DNA from: a virus
IMG/VR virus record: IMGVR_UViG_3300002835_000815
Span: 1-29,150 of that record
Reading direction: 5' to 3' (one strand)
Length of the DNA stretch: 29,150 bases
This document shows, piece by piece, positions 14,574-29,108 of the stretch. The position numbers and the translations under genes were made by a program. Position 1 is the stretch's first letter; the number at the start of each line of letters is the position of its first letter. Below the pieces are notes generated by a model. That model was not told the origin of the DNA and ran no database searches. It saw only the letters and a program-made list of their open reading frames with translations.

Positions 14574-14602
14574 TAAAAACACCAACTTAGATAAAAATAG
14601 TT
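14574..14602 (-). promoter_or_regulatory. Two-block promoter motif, site B
   Basis: Reads AACTATTTTT, 10 nt, GTGTTTTTA on the minus strand, 18 nt before the ATG at 14555. It begins only 4 nt after the T run of a strong terminator (14607-14636). A terminator immediately followed by this motif and then a new gene is the best positional evidence in the window that the motif is a promoter. Confidence 0.75.
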
Positions 14603-17969: not shown

Positions 17970-20420
17970 TTATATCATGTTTAATGTTGATACTACAAAC
18001 AAACTACTAGAGTTAACTGAAACAAAAGATAATATATCAATACTACCAGATGTCGGAACATAGGCCGAACCCGATGGTTGTTTAACTGAACTATCAAATG
18101 TTACCAACGAGCCTGATAAAGTAGTAATTACTAATGTTGCACTTGTTCCTGCTTGTATATTTGTTGGAGATATTCTAGTTGATGACCCGGAAGGTAGGGA
18201 TAATGTAAAATAGTTACCAGTATTCAAATCCATAGATGCAGTATTAGATGCAATAGACATTGATATTACATTACCAAATGCACTACCTGTTATTTTCAAA
18301 CTGCCACTCATTATTTGAGAGCCAGTAATTATGTTATTTGCATTTAACAATACAACCGATGATGTAAATGTGTTTAAACTTGCGGTTGCAGTATTTAAAT
18401 TACTAATAGAGATTAATGCGGATGCACTAAATGTTTCTAAATTAGCAGTTTCAATTAATAAACTCGCAGTAGTTGTTTCAATGTTATTCAATCTACCATT
18501 AGTAGAAGAAGTATATGCATTGAATGATGCAGTTGTTGTAAAACTACCTGTTATACCTTCCAAATTATCCAATCTACTATCTACCGATGTAGAGAATGCA
18601 AGAGGGTCACCTAAACCATTTATTGTTGATGAACTAAATGAGTTTGCACTTAATGCTCCTACGAAGCCAGCTTGTGTTCCACCACCTTGCCCCATTGCAA
18701 CTATAATAGTTCCAGCGGATGTTTGTAATTCTAATCCATTACTTCCTTGTGCTCTAACATGGTGTGTTACTAAATCAGCACCATTCACCATATTGATTGA
18801 ACCACTTATGTTTATACTACCTGTTATAGTTTGATTACCTACGAATGTGTTACTGCCTGTTGTTGCAAAGTTACCTGTTGAGCCACTAACATCAGGAATG
18901 TTTACACTAAATGTAGTTGTATCTCCTTTTGTGAATGTAAGGTTTCTAGTACCTGTATCAAATGATGCAGTTACTAATGCTAAACTAGCTGAAGTATTCA
19001 AACTTGCAGTAGCAGAATTTAAATTAGTTACAGATGTGTTTACACTTGCACTATTAGTATTCAAATTACTTATTGATATTAATGCAGATGCACTAAATGT
19101 GTTTAATTCAGTTATAGAAGTTACTAACGATGCAGTAGATTGAGATGCAGTGAATGTGTTTAAAGCACTTACTGATGTAAATAAACTTGCAGTAGCTGAA
19201 TTTAAATTAGTTACAGATGTATTAACACTTGCACTATTTGTATTTAAGTTATCAATACTAATTTGTTGAGATGCAGAACTTGCATTCAAATTACTTATAG
19301 ACACTAATGCAGATGCACTAAATGTGTTTAATTCAGTTATCGATGTTACTAATGATGCAGTTGATTGAGATGCAGTATATGTGTTTAATGCAGATATAGA
19401 TGTATTAACCGATGCACTATTCGTTTCTAAACTACTTACTCTTTGATTATTAGAAGAGGTGTAAGAGTTAAATGATGCAGTTGTTACTAAAGTATTTACA
19501 TTAAACGAAGAAGTATATAAGTTTAAATTATCTATACTAACTTGTTGAGATGCAGTATTTGCATTCAATTGAGTTATAGATGAATTAGTTGATGCAGTAT
19601 ATGCATTGAACGAACTTGTATCTAATCCTTGTACTGATATAATTGCTACACCACCTGCTACAATTGCACTAATCGCAGAACCTGTAAAGTTAAGTGATAC
19701 TGCATTACCTTGTGGAACACCTTCATCTAATATCGGCATTGAGATAGAAGAAGTAATACCTGTTAACTTGCTACCATCACCAACGAATTGAGATGCAGAT
19801 ACAAATGAACTTGCACTAATAGATGTGAATGTATTAGCAGCAGTGAATGTATTACTACCGGTTGTTGCAAAACTACCAGTCTTAGCATTTATACTATCTA
19901 TTGATACCTGTTGAGATGCAGAACTTGCATTCAAATTAGTTATAGAGATTGCAGTCGATGCAGTAAATGTATTGATATTAGTTACCGAAGTATTTAAACT
20001 TGCAGTAGTAGTATTTAAATTATTTATTGATACCTGTGCAGAAGCAGTAAATGCCTGTAAAGATGCAGTAGCTTGATTTAAGTTACTGATATCAGGAATA
20101 CTACCTGTTGCAACTGTCACATTAAATGTAGAACCATTACCTTTAGTAAAAGTTATTACATTACTATTTGCTTGTGCAGATGCAGTTATTAAAAGAGATG
20201 CAGTAGTTAGGGATTGTGCTGATGCACTAAATGCATTCAATTGAGATATACTACTATTCCAACTTGCACTATCTACATTGTATCCTATCTCATCAACCAT
20301 AGAGTCAATCATATTTACATTGAATGCTCTAAGTATTGCTGGAGTGATTGCTCCTGCGTTATTATTGGGGAAGGAAGAGTTGTTGTCAACCTTCAATGCC
20401 TGTTTTGTAATTTCAGCCAT
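17970..20420 (-). CDS. Large tail fibre protein with heptad-like repeats
   Basis: 816 aa, extremely rich in Ser, Thr, Ala and Asn. Most of it consists of short repeats of the type ISNLN-x-x-SAS, LNTSVTNLNSATASL and NTFTASQSTASL, which suggest a long trimeric coiled-coil fibre. A globular insert near 205-280 contains SASQFVGDGSKLTGI, a motif common in marine and freshwater phage fibres. A second insert near 570-620 has GLELQTSAGTI. The last 92 residues (725-816) are homologous to the end of the fibre at 10154-11494. Two nearly identical segments of about 100 bp (19064-19165 and 19288-19390) show recent internal duplication. It is the second gene behind promoter site D. Confidence 0.75.
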   Translation of the reverse strand: MAEITKQALKVDNNSSFPNNNAGAITPAILRAFNVNMIDSMVDEIGYNVDSASWNSSISQLNAFSASAQSLTTASLLITASAQANSNVITFTKGNGSTFNVTVATGSIPDISNLNQATASLQAFTASAQVSINNLNTTTASLNTSVTNINTFTASTAISITNLNASSASQQVSIDSINAKTGSFATTGSNTFTAANTFTSISASSFVSASQFVGDGSKLTGITSSISMPILDEGVPQGNAVSLNFTGSAISAIVAGGVAIISVQGLDTSSFNAYTASTNSSITQLNANTASQQVSIDNLNLYTSSFNVNTLVTTASFNSYTSSNNQRVSSLETNSASVNTSISALNTYTASQSTASLVTSITELNTFSASALVSISNLNASSASQQISIDNLNTNSASVNTSVTNLNSATASLFTSVSALNTFTASQSTASLVTSITELNTFSASALISISNLNTNSASVNTSVTNLNSATASLNTSASLALVTASFDTGTRNLTFTKGDTTTFSVNIPDVSGSTGNFATTGSNTFVGNQTITGSINISGSINMVNGADLVTHHVRAQGSNGLELQTSAGTIIVAMGQGGGTQAGFVGALSANSFSSSTINGLGDPLAFSTSVDSRLDNLEGITGSFTTTASFNAYTSSTNGRLNNIETTTASLLIETANLETFSASALISISNLNTATASLNTFTSSVVLLNANNIITGSQIMSGSLKITGSAFGNVISMSIASNTASMDLNTGNYFTLSLPSGSSTRISPTNIQAGTSATLVITTLSGSLVTFDSSVKQPSGSAYVPTSGSIDILSFVSVNSSSLFVVSTLNMI
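19012..19390 (-). repeat. Imperfect internal direct repeats in the fibre gene
   Basis: The segment 19012-19165 recurs at 19196-19255 plus 19288-19390, with about 30 bases inserted in the second copy. The best-kept part encodes VTSITELNTFSASAL in both copies. This indicates duplication and length change within the fibre shaft. Confidence 0.7.
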
Positions 20421-24965: not shown

Positions 24966-25517
24966 TTATTTATTAAATGGATTATCCAATGTATTCTCTA
25001 AATACTTTCTTATTTTCTTAACTGAAAGGAATACAGTACTCTTACTTATCTTTGTATCTCTTGCAACTTCGTCAAGCGTTTTGTCCGACATCCAATAGAG
25101 TTCAAATATCTTTGCTTGTGGCCACATTCTTGTTACTTTTAATTTAGTCAACTCTTGCATGACTTCTTCATGTGCAGTCTGCAATTCCAAATCTCTATCT
25201 ATATCATACTCCTCTTCCATTACTTCTTCAGGCATCTCTTCTTTGTATACAACTCTATTCAATTTCTTTGTCTTATTTATCCATCTGCTTTCTAAAAAAC
25301 GATAACAATAAAACATATTGTATGCAGTACCCCAAAATATCTTTGGATTACATTTCTTATGTAGATACTCATAAAGTTCTTGTACTAAATCTTCACCCTC
25401 TTCTTTACTTTTAGTAATCTTTGATGCGTGTTTAATTAACCAATGATTTGAATCCACATATAGATTAGTTAGTCTTTGTTTACATTCATTGTATTGTATA
25501 CTACCTGAATCTATCAT
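24966..25517 (-). CDS. Sigma-70-like RNA polymerase sigma factor
   Basis: 183 aa. Expected to bind host RNA polymerase and direct it to phage promoters. Residues about 18-80 fit region 2: WLIKHASKITKSKEEGEDLV followed by QELYEYL, and the aromatic-rich FLESRWINKTKK. An acidic linker follows (91-118). Residues about 118-172 fit region 4, with the helix-turn-helix TLDEVARDTKISKSTVFLSV and a recognition helix ending KKIRKYL. The layout is that of short ECF-type factors. It sits in the middle region, before the structural genes, and the window contains at least four near-identical two-block motifs that could be its promoters (inference). Confidence 0.78.
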   Translation of the reverse strand: MIDSGSIQYNECKQRLTNLYVDSNHWLIKHASKITKSKEEGEDLVQELYEYLHKKCNPKIFWGTAYNMFYCYRFLESRWINKTKKLNRVVYKEEMPEEVMEEEYDIDRDLELQTAHEEVMQELTKLKVTRMWPQAKIFELYWMSDKTLDEVARDTKISKSTVFLSVKKIRKYLENTLDNPFNK

Positions 25518-26994: not shown

Positions 26995-27360
26995 TTAATA
27001 AGGATACATTGGGTGTTTTGGATTTGCTGCACCATACAATACTCCTGCTTCTATTCCGTATTTCATATTATCCCATTGGTCTACAAGTTGTAAATTATCC
27101 AATGAATTATTATGTTTGTCATGGTCTATGTGATGACACTGTAAACCATCTTTAATCATTCCGTTGTGACACTCATATACAAACCTGTGGATAAGATACA
27201 TTTTAGGAAAACTATCATGTATACAAAATTGTTGATACCCTCTTGTGTGATTAACTTTTGATAATCTTTTAACCTTATTGAATTTAAGAGAATAAATATT
27301 ACCATCTATGTCCGATGCGTAATTTGTAAATACTGGGTGTTTTTTTAATTCCATAGTCAT
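26995..27360 (-). CDS. HNH endonuclease
   Basis: 121 aa. Nuclease with the HNH fold: YLIHRFVYECHNG (55-67), then QCHHIDHDKHNNSLDNLQLV (74-93), which gives the His pair H76-H77, the NN pair and the final N-L of HNH_3-type homing enzymes. The N-terminal YASDIDGNIYSLK looks like a short NUMOD4-like segment. It is small but seems complete. The conserved ATTTGGTAA/ATTTGTCGT element ends 12 nt before the ATG. Such free-standing HNH genes in phages are usually mobile. Confidence 0.78.
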   Translation of the reverse strand: MTMELKKHPVFTNYASDIDGNIYSLKFNKVKRLSKVNHTRGYQQFCIHDSFPKMYLIHRFVYECHNGMIKDGLQCHHIDHDKHNNSLDNLQLVDQWDNMKYGIEAGVLYGAANPKHPMYPY

Positions 27361-27372
27361 TTTGTTTATAAT

Positions 27373-27405
27373 GTAATATACGACAAATATTTTAATTTAC
27401 CAAAT
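27373..27405 (-). promoter_or_regulatory. Conserved leader element, copy 2
   Basis: On the minus strand it reads ATTTGGTAA, 8 nt, ATTTGTCGT, then ATATTAC, and lies 12 nt before the HNH gene ATG. The same blocks with the same 8-nt gap occur at 28900-28933. It does not fit the Bacteroidota -33/-7 promoter consensus or the two-block motif of the structural genes, so it may be an early promoter or a repressor site. Confidence 0.5.
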
Positions 27406-27443
27406 CGTATAACAATATATATTAGTTCCCGGCCCAAAGCAAC

Positions 27444-27482
27444 AAAAAACCCAGCGCGAATGACAAAAAACGGCTGGGTTTT
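27444..27482 (-). terminator. Intrinsic terminator (works on both strands)
   Basis: AAAACCCAGC (27446-27455) pairs with GCTGGGTTTT (27473-27482), a 10-bp stem with a 17-nt loop. On the minus strand six T follow; on the plus strand the stem ends in TTTT. It closes the putative small RNA transcript and also lies behind the 186-aa HNH gene. Confidence 0.85.
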
Positions 27483-27547
27483 AATATGTTGAGTAGGACT
27501 TCATATATGTAATGCTGAATAGCGATGAAGTATTTTTTAACCTACCT
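27444..27547 (-). ncRNA. Putative phage small RNA (about 100 nt)
   Basis: No protein frame fits here, but a promoter-like motif (site H, 27552-27580) points into the stretch and a strong terminator ends it. The predicted RNA has a bulged hairpin: GUAGG (27545-27541) pairs with CCUAC (27497-27493), and ACUUCAU (27531-27525) with AUGAAGU (27504-27498), leaving an A-rich 9-nt bulge on one side and a 20-nt loop with a small inner GCU/AGC stem. The ends are set by motif positions, not by data. Function is unknown. Confidence 0.5.
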
Positions 27548-27551
27548 TATA

Positions 27552-27580
27552 TAAAAACATATTATGAATGTAATATAGTT
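27552..27580 (-). promoter_or_regulatory. Two-block promoter motif, site H (small RNA)
   Basis: Reads AACTATATTA, 10 nt, ATGTTTTTA on the minus strand: 8 of 10 and 8 of 9 bases match the consensus with the exact spacing. No start codon follows; instead a structured stretch and a terminator follow. Confidence 0.5.
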
Positions 27581-27605
27581 AAAATATTTCACTTCTCCAA
27601 AACAT

Positions 27606-28166
27606 TTATATAAATTGTTTTGCTTTAGGATGATATATCAATGAGTAAACATATGCAATACTAATACCTAAATCTTTTGCAATCTCTTCAACCAAGTCTT
27701 TTGCTTTACCTGAGTATGAACCTTTATTAGTATAATATAATTTAACTACTCTTTCCATACTATCCATATACTTTCCCTTTGTCTTTGCTGTATTTCTTAT
27801 TGTAATCATTTGTGAGTTCATATAATGAGTTCCCCACTTTAGATTAGTTACTGCATTATTATTAGGATTGTCGTCTTTGTGTAGGACTAATTCTTTACCT
27901 GGTCTTTTCTTTATCCAAGCCAATGCAACTAATCTATGCACATACTCCATCATTCTTTGACCACTATCATTTGAAATACAAACTTGTAAGTGCCCCTGCA
28001 TAGGTAAAGCTCTTGGTGATAATACTAAACCACATCTACCATTTGTTTTACCTGATACCGTAGTTGTTTGTGTTCTTGCAAGTTCAGGTACTCTCATTAT
28101 CTTTCCTGTATTTGATGCAATATATTTACTATATCCAGGAATGCATTTCCATTTTTCTTGTTTCAT
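27606..28166 (-). CDS. HNH endonuclease with NUMOD4 domain
   Basis: 186 aa. Homing-type endonuclease. The NUMOD4 DNA-binding segment is at 6-24: W6-K-x-I-P-GYSKYIASNTGKI. The HNH_3 core lies at about 75-112: YVHRLVALAWI (H77), then LVLHKDDNPNNNAVTNLKWG with H96, D98-D99 and N102-N104. The C-terminal 50 residues (LVEEIAKDLGISIAYVYSLI) form a helix-turn-helix that may set target specificity. All catalytic residues are visible. It lies 3 nt after the replisome-organiser-like gene and probably shares its transcript. Confidence 0.85.
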   Translation of the reverse strand: MKQEKWKCIPGYSKYIASNTGKIMRVPELARTQTTTVSGKTNGRCGLVLSPRALPMQGHLQVCISNDSGQRMMEYVHRLVALAWIKKRPGKELVLHKDDNPNNNAVTNLKWGTHYMNSQMITIRNTAKTKGKYMDSMERVVKLYYTNKGSYSGKAKDLVEEIAKDLGISIAYVYSLIYHPKAKQFI

Positions 28167-28169
28167 ATT

Positions 28170-28775
28170 TTATTGTTTTTCATCTGCAAATATATTATCA
28201 AACTTATTTGCTATTTCTTTTTGTTCTTTATCTAAACTACCTGTAATAACATCTGCTAACATATCTTGTCTTTCAGCTTTTGTTTTAACTTCTTCTTGTT
28301 CCTTGATTATATCTTGAACTTTATCTTTCTCTTTATCCTTGTCTTTAATACTATCGGTAGTGTATTGATAGGGTATAGATAGAGTATCAATAGAGTTATC
28401 AAAGACTATCTTTGGGGTATAGATACCAGATGTATCTACTTCTAATACTCTAGCAATAATCAATTTTTTAATTGCTGATAATACAGCTTTGTTCTTACTA
28501 TTTAAAAAATCTATTCCATATTGATAAACACAGAATTTATTTATAATCCATTTATCAGTATCAATTTTAGTAATTCTACCTTTGAATATTTCAGCAAGTC
28601 TTTCTAAACTTATATTAGTTCCACAACTGAAATTTAATAGTTTTATATTTTGTTTCCATATACCAGCGTTGTCACAAGTATCTAATAAGTAAATCCAAAT
28701 AATTTTATAATCATTGGACATTTCCGTGAACCATTCATCTTCCCATTTTTGGGTGTCTGTAAATCTTTGAGCCAT
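28170..28775 (-). CDS. Replisome organiser-like protein
   Basis: 201 aa. The N-terminal 110 residues match, by pattern, the winged-helix N-domain of phage replication initiators and DnaD-like helicase loaders: MAQRFTDTQKWEDEWFTEMS, then IIWIYLLDTCDNAGIW (26-41) and FKGRITKIDTDKWIINKF with YQYG. The C-terminal third (about 140-190) is charged and helical (KDKDKEKDKVQDIIKEQ) and lacks a visible ATPase motif. Likely role is recruiting host helicase or binding the phage origin, which is inference. It is the first gene after the right-hand control region and lies only 9 nt after an intrinsic terminator, so its expression may be controlled by readthrough. Confidence 0.6.
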   Translation of the reverse strand: MAQRFTDTQKWEDEWFTEMSNDYKIIWIYLLDTCDNAGIWKQNIKLLNFSCGTNISLERLAEIFKGRITKIDTDKWIINKFCVYQYGIDFLNSKNKAVLSAIKKLIIARVLEVDTSGIYTPKIVFDNSIDTLSIPYQYTTDSIKDKDKEKDKVQDIIKEQEEVKTKAERQDMLADVITGSLDKEQKEIANKFDNIFADEKQ

Positions 28776-28933: not shown

Positions 28934-29108
28934 TATTCAGTATTTTAATTTTACCTACACATATACATATTATCGTTTCTCAAAAACATAATACAAAAAA
29001 ATGTAATATATAACTCACACTATTTGTCAAAGTGAAAACTGTGTGTTTTTACGCATATAAAAAAATTACTATATATAACTGCAAAAAGGGGTATTCCATG
29101 CATAAATC

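Follow-up and report, generated by a model that had tools for sequence, protein, structure and literature searches.

One group of Bacteroidota viruses carries an undescribed family of structured small RNAs, and the RNA is real: its fold, the covariation of its terminator loop with the translation start of the adjoining homing-endonuclease gene and two promoter motifs beside it are conserved among related viral contigs. Comparison of these sequences led us to propose that it is a phage antisense RNA that probably represses translation of the adjacent endonuclease gene. The element was studied in a 29,150-base IMG/VR virus fragment (the window), whose minus strand holds most of its genes. Among the matches listed for the terminase and portal proteins of the window, the best are phages of Bacteroidota, and its portal protein shares 35% identity with the one from Nonlabens phage P12024S. 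DNA similarity searches against annotated phages returned only short matches for the window (E 0.2-0.8) and none for L158, one of its relatives; the relatives were collected via HNH genes, DNA patterns and a GIY-YIG-like gene, and all of them are uncultured contigs. Three genes of the window bear on the RNA:

26995..27360, minus strand: downstream HNH_3 endonuclease gene, the proposed target (Pfam HNH_3, E 3.7e-11)
27606..28166, minus strand: upstream NUMOD4/HNH_3 gene, an insertion missing from L006 and L009, both of which keep the RNA
24966..25517, minus strand: sigma factor gene of the phage, whose product may read the late motif (PHROG 1740 RNA polymerase sigma factor, E 8.3e-9)

The 245-base gap between the NUMOD4/HNH_3 and HNH_3 genes contains no listed open reading frame, and none of at least 50 aa is present in 27361-27605, in agreement with a first-pass annotation that had read the gap as free of protein frames and placed a candidate small RNA there. 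Other regions of the window also showed distinctive features. A replication-type gene (28170-28775) has a C-terminal tail, TKAERQDMLA-VITGSLDKEQK, that is nearly identical among relatives, while its N-terminal part is swapped in relatives for an unrelated DUF1376-like one. A long gene at 17970-20420, with many repeats at multiples of 42 bases (14 codons), probably encodes a coiled-coil tail protein. A 51-nt stretch without a long open reading frame (29030-29080, TATATAACTGCAAAAAGGGGTATTCCATG...) is 88-90% identical in L002 and L009, where its orientation is opposite to that of the neighbouring matches.

A covariance model built from five relatives finds the small RNA in about 27 related contigs (27 distinct elements) and scores the window element at 86.7 bits (27443-27546). 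In contigs that were searched whole, the element, wherever it was detected, had a single convincing copy. The first-pass annotation had named stem covariation in relatives as a check on its candidate; in the 27-sequence alignment, compensatory changes on both sides are present at 25/25 modelled base pairs. Paired cells amount to 98.5%, compared to 36-46% with partners slid by 1-3 columns, a margin far beyond the lean toward structure that comes from fitting the alignment to the model. In the window, L002, L163, L219 and L228, one whole P1 pair is missing, both partners having been lost jointly. The predicted window transcript (27443-27566, minus strand) folds at -30.0 kcal/mol, compared to -15.9 +/- 3.1 for shuffles (z -4.5), and when folded alone adopts the family structure.

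Searches beyond these contigs were negative. The comparison with known RNA families suggested by the first-pass annotation gave no Rfam family at gathering score for the window or the relatives, and the permissive hits, to microRNA, leader and small-RNA families, were at chance level. Loci matching a loose stem pattern were nearly all chance, the model finding nothing in 84 of them. Bacterial genomes contained 22 pattern loci with no convincing model match (best 21 bits), and 395 genomes of one phylum gave no model match, which is weak evidence given stricter filters and no positive control. The distant cultured relative Nonlabens phage P12024S likewise gave no convincing match (18.7 bits). 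A search with the terminator pattern alone brought one new contig, and the scaffold was present there too. The parts of the RNA are as follows:

27443..27565, minus strand: small RNA gene from predicted start to terminator end, about 122 nt (model match, covariation and fold; start predicted from the -7 box)
27556..27564, minus strand: P0 5' strand UAAUAUGUU, pairing with 27482-27490 (permutation p about 1e-5 over 27 elements; MFE fold)
27541..27546, minus strand: P1 5' strand GGUAGG, pairing with 27492-27497 (compensatory changes at every pair)
27532..27540, minus strand: conserved A-rich bulge UUAAAAAAU (alignment of 27 elements)
27525..27531, minus strand: P2 5' strand ACUUCAU, pairing with 27498-27504 (compensatory changes at every pair)
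27514..27523, minus strand: P3 hairpin GCU-AUUC-AGC, a small apical stem (compensatory changes at all three pairs)
27498..27504, minus strand: P2 3' strand AUGAAGU (covariation; fold)
27492..27497, minus strand: P1 3' strand CCUACU (covariation; fold)
27482..27490, minus strand: P0 3' strand AACAUAUUA (permutation; fold)
27444..27481, minus strand: intrinsic terminator hairpin and T run (eight of eight modelled pairs covary; 100% of cells paired)
27459..27470, minus strand: terminator loop UUUUUUGUCAUU, the proposed seed (seed/target covariation in relatives)

In the overall architecture, helices P0, P1 and P2 are nested and interrupted by two A-rich bulges; the small P3 and the terminator complete it. 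P0 is the outer helix that joins the leader to the stretch preceding the terminator; it runs 7-11 pairs in about 20/27 elements, and because an element's own pairs beat permuted ones (p about 1e-5), it is supported separately from the covariance model. The terminator loop of the window is mostly unpaired in the ensemble. A kissing interaction between the A-rich bulge and the terminator loop, sought by eye, was inconsistent across relatives and was dropped. These data strongly support a stand-alone structured small RNA with its own predicted promoter and terminator. The first-pass annotation had correctly placed the bulged hairpin and the six-T terminator, and its central proposal of such an RNA fits these data, with two helices (P0 and P3) and a second promoter that it had missed; the terminated transcript it had put at about 100 nt has a predicted length of about 122 nt (27565-27443).

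The first-pass annotation proposed no target, and the terminator loop supplies one: it is complementary to the translation start of the adjoining homing-endonuclease gene, and across relatives the two covary. Among 26 distinct seed/target pairs, 0/200,000 permutations were as good, in a test that treats the pairs without phylogenetic relatedness, a problem lessened at the class level, where 6/362,880 exact permutations of nine loop-class representatives did as well. The pairs extend to 11 bp in L158 (UGCCAUCGGUU/AACCGAUGGCA), 10 bp in L279 (UGCCAUGUUU/AAACAUGGCA) and L230, and 9 bp in L131, and in L008 (UUGCUAUU/AAUAGCAA) both sides have departed from the AUG motif together. Since AUG is present in nearly every start region, a CAU-AUG match alone does not account for the covariation. 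For L180 and L163, whose complement is out of frame and 10 nt ahead of the probable start, the need to keep amino acids or codons does not explain it; a Met-Thr codon bias as the cause of the complementarity was rejected on this position together with the permutation among true starts.

Several other properties of the pairing were examined across the contigs surveyed. First, in contigs whose seed differs from the common UUUUUUGUCAUU, the neighbour's start matches best among all open reading frame starts, except in L100, in which another AUGACAAA start outscores it. Second, the common seed is A/U-rich and in some contigs also matches other AUGACAAA starts. Early-type genes with such a start that match the common loop (L006 at 2477 and 2699, L002 at 3453 and 3675, L166 at 4102) are possible further targets of the RNA. 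Third, the gene downstream of the RNA encodes either HNH_3 or, in the same place, a zinc-finger-like N-terminal part with a GIY-YIG-like motif, recognised by eye and with no Pfam match; in either case the gene is preceded by a sigma-A-type promoter of its own. One seed is common to HNH and GIY-YIG-like neighbours, and GIY-YIG-like neighbours that are 59-78% identical carry different seeds; judged from these comparisons, the seed tracks the start sequence, not the protein type. This pattern bears on whether the loop and the start region could instead be the two DNA halves of a site, operator or homing, to which the endonuclease binds, as suggested by the inverted complementary sequences that flank the endonuclease promoter and by I-TevI, which binds an operator at its own promoter in autorepression (PMC2988022). 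We regard such a DNA-level signal as highly improbable, since unrelated endonucleases share a sequence pair while similar ones differ, the spacing varies, and one copy always sits in the hairpin loop of a covarying terminator.

The window itself offers a weak example of the proposed antisense pairing:

27356..27361, minus strand: AAUGAC, the proposed target, which spans the downstream HNH gene's start codon (6 bp; weak in the window)

AAUGAC alone makes up this pairing, which taken singly is not significant (shuffled-target p 0.28), and because it is so short the antisense claim rests on the relatives. The window RNA is 98% identical to that of L002 and similarity falls at the HNH gene, as if the window target had been replaced by recombination. 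In L228 the complement is partly lost, and some HNH homologues occur without the small RNA. Between L006 and L100, P1-P3 are almost the same while the terminator and the endonuclease differ, which suggests that the seed is exchanged along with the endonuclease cassette.

We next consider whether the RNA would act on a separate message or within its own transcript. In L007 a 234-codon gene lies between the RNA and the matched start, an arrangement suggestive of action in trans. In L282 the RNA lies elsewhere, on the other strand and not beside the endonuclease; two comparable candidate target starts compete there, leaving this contig ambiguous as proof of trans action. In the same contig (2380-2492) an inverted repeat, TTGTCAGGAATTA...TAATTCCTGACAA, flanks the HNH promoter and leader, perhaps another control of the HNH gene where the small RNA lies elsewhere. 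Under cis control, the loop in transcripts that read through the terminator would mask the endonuclease start some 70-100 nt downstream on the same molecule, and translation would come only from mRNA of the endonuclease's own promoter; in T4, hairpins likewise make the ribosome binding sites of homing endonucleases inaccessible when the transcript is long (PMC2988022). The RNA and its target are in cis in nearly all relatives and seed/target covariation fits this arrangement equally well, but cis masking needs neither an elaborate scaffold nor a conserved promoter and strong terminator of the RNA's own, and with the intervening gene of L007 also against it we consider it unlikely.

Two promoter motifs precede the RNA, and the downstream endonuclease gene has a sigma-A-type promoter of its own:

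27570..27601, minus strand: sigma-A-type promoter TTTGG-N19-TATATTAC (two window matches compared to 0.09 expected; 20/27 elements)
27552..27580, minus strand: two-block motif of late type, AACTATATT-N12-TGTTTTTA, which overlaps the promoter above (three in the window compared to 0.00 expected)
27373..27404, minus strand: sigma-A-type promoter of the downstream HNH gene (pattern match)

The sigma-A-type promoter of the RNA reads TTTGG-N19-TATATT at 27601-27572, and the only other match in the window precedes the downstream HNH gene. Its spacing is exactly 19 nt in 20/27 elements, compared to 16/27 elements that have the late motif in relaxed form, and it is kept after differing upstream genes and after the HNH insertion. 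The motif is similar to the sigma-A consensus of Bacteroidota, a -33 TTTG and a -7 TAHHTTTG box at fixed spacing, with the first T at -12 (PMC6847099). It departs from that consensus at the end of the -7 box, where the window has TTAC in place of TTTG; counted from -12, the predicted start is 27565, one base before P0. Conservation of this promoter weighs against the view that the element is a mere structured 3' end and terminator belonging to the transcript of the upstream replication gene, its complementarity to the next gene being due to chance. The RNA does follow a replication gene and end in a terminator, but the promoter is conserved between that gene and the RNA and retained after the upstream HNH insertion, the loop and bulge are conserved, and seed and start covary, making this a very remote prospect.

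The late-type motif is genuine. The two-block motif that the first-pass annotation reported is present at exact spacing at 27552-27580 on the minus strand, and in the form AACTATNTT-N12-TGTTNTTA it has exactly 3 window copies (1104-1132, 14574-14602 and 27552-27580), with 0.00 expected in shuffles. The motif AACTATTTT-N12-TGTTTTTA, with the same exact N12, lies upstream of structural genes in relatives, and the copies at 1104-1132 and 14574-14602 are those of the structural region of the window. The annotated ATG (1099) begins only 4 nt after the first of these, where the message may be leaderless or use a later start codon. Among the RNA elements, the TGTT block persists in those that lost the AACTAT block, and P0 pairing accounts for this conservation no less well than a promoter would.

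The first-pass annotation had gone further, predicting that the RNA would be made together with the structural genes if the phage sigma factor reads the motif. The motif, its place before structural genes and the presence of a sigma factor gene fit a part of this; late-only transcription is not supported, because the late motif overlaps a sigma-A-type promoter whose predicted start borders P0. On these motifs the host sigma factor is likely to transcribe the RNA early, late transcription is possible, and early or early-plus-late expression appears likelier than late expression alone. A late RNA directed at a host or unknown target draws on the three exact motifs in the window, their conserved spacing in relatives and the sigma factor gene, but the overlapping sigma-A-type promoter is more widely conserved, a start just after the late motif would omit the P0 5' strand, and the neighbour's start is a good target. 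We thus consider such a role improbable.

Antisense control of the neighbouring gene has parallels in known systems. The gene for c4 RNA immediately precedes its target and has the same orientation. In phages P1 and P7 this RNA folds into a scaffold, and loops on it base-pair with a phage mRNA where translation begins; the RNA here shares the plan of a phage RNA scaffold with variable loops that give specificity (PMC5320573). Here, too, complementarity to the translation start of the following phage gene is seen, in covarying pairs but through a single loop. However, c4 is cut from a longer transcript by RNase P whereas a promoter of its own is predicted here; c4 uses two pairing loops against the ribosome binding site, compared to one seed in the terminator loop; and c4 acts in lysogenic immunity, whereas the proposed target here is a homing endonuclease. 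The Rfam C4 model gave no match at gathering score in the window or relatives and was absent among the permissive hits. In its proposed action the small RNA is closest to c4 of P1/P7, without being a member of that family.

In T4-type control (I-TevI, segB and Aeh1 mobE), the message itself folds into a cis hairpin that conceals its ribosome binding site (PMC2988022). Both cases involve RNA pairing that restrains, or here would restrain, translation of a phage homing endonuclease, with promoter choice as part of the control. Unlike in the T4 messages, none of the conserved hairpins contains the endonuclease start, which follows both the terminator and the gene's own promoter, and we propose a trans solution, a separate terminated RNA with a complementary loop. 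In its sequence features the RNA has the marks of a trans-encoded antisense sRNA: its own promoter, a terminator and short imperfect complementarity to the start. Cyanophage S-PM2 CfrI is also a phage antisense RNA adjoining a homing-endonuclease gene (review PMC12197685), but it is antisense to psbA, which it overlaps, and is not a seed-type RNA against the endonuclease start. For the LhrC small RNAs of Listeria, the terminator loop is discussed as a contact with target mRNA (PMC4132741); these RNAs are cellular and multicopy and have different targets.

Taken together, the following mechanism is proposed. Host RNA polymerase would transcribe about 122 nt from the sigma-A-type promoter to the intrinsic terminator, and the phage sigma factor would perhaps transcribe the RNA later from the overlapping late motif. 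The 5' two thirds would form the conserved scaffold (P0-bulge-P1-bulge-P2-P3), and the seed would be the loop displayed by the terminator hairpin, about 12-20 nt long and predicted from the relatives to form 7-12 bp with the endonuclease mRNA around its start codon. This message would begin at its own promoter just downstream of the RNA and carry a short leader; most likely, the RNA would bind the leader and start codon and block initiation. Messages of Bacteroidota are without a Shine-Dalgarno sequence, and flavobacterial translation is tuned by structure around the start (PMC6847099); because the Shine-Dalgarno is absent, masking the start codon would block initiation. The scaffold appears to stay with the phage while the terminator/seed and the endonuclease are exchanged together, so that seed and target would remain matched. 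Its purpose may be to limit damage by the nuclease or to confine the nuclease in time. More tentatively, and with somewhat less than even confidence, we suggest a modular antisense brake: a fixed scaffold with an interchangeable seed swapped with each endonuclease, in which overlapping promoters might pass the RNA from host to phage polymerase specificity, with silencing outlasting the endonuclease's early promoter.

In the literature searched, we found no trans-encoded small RNA that controls a homing endonuclease. If the proposal is true, this RNA would be one way in which phages tolerate selfish nucleases and a natural example of a seed and target exchanged together, and the matched RNA/target pairs of the family would be ready material for tests of antisense control at start codons in bacteria whose messages lack Shine-Dalgarno sequences.
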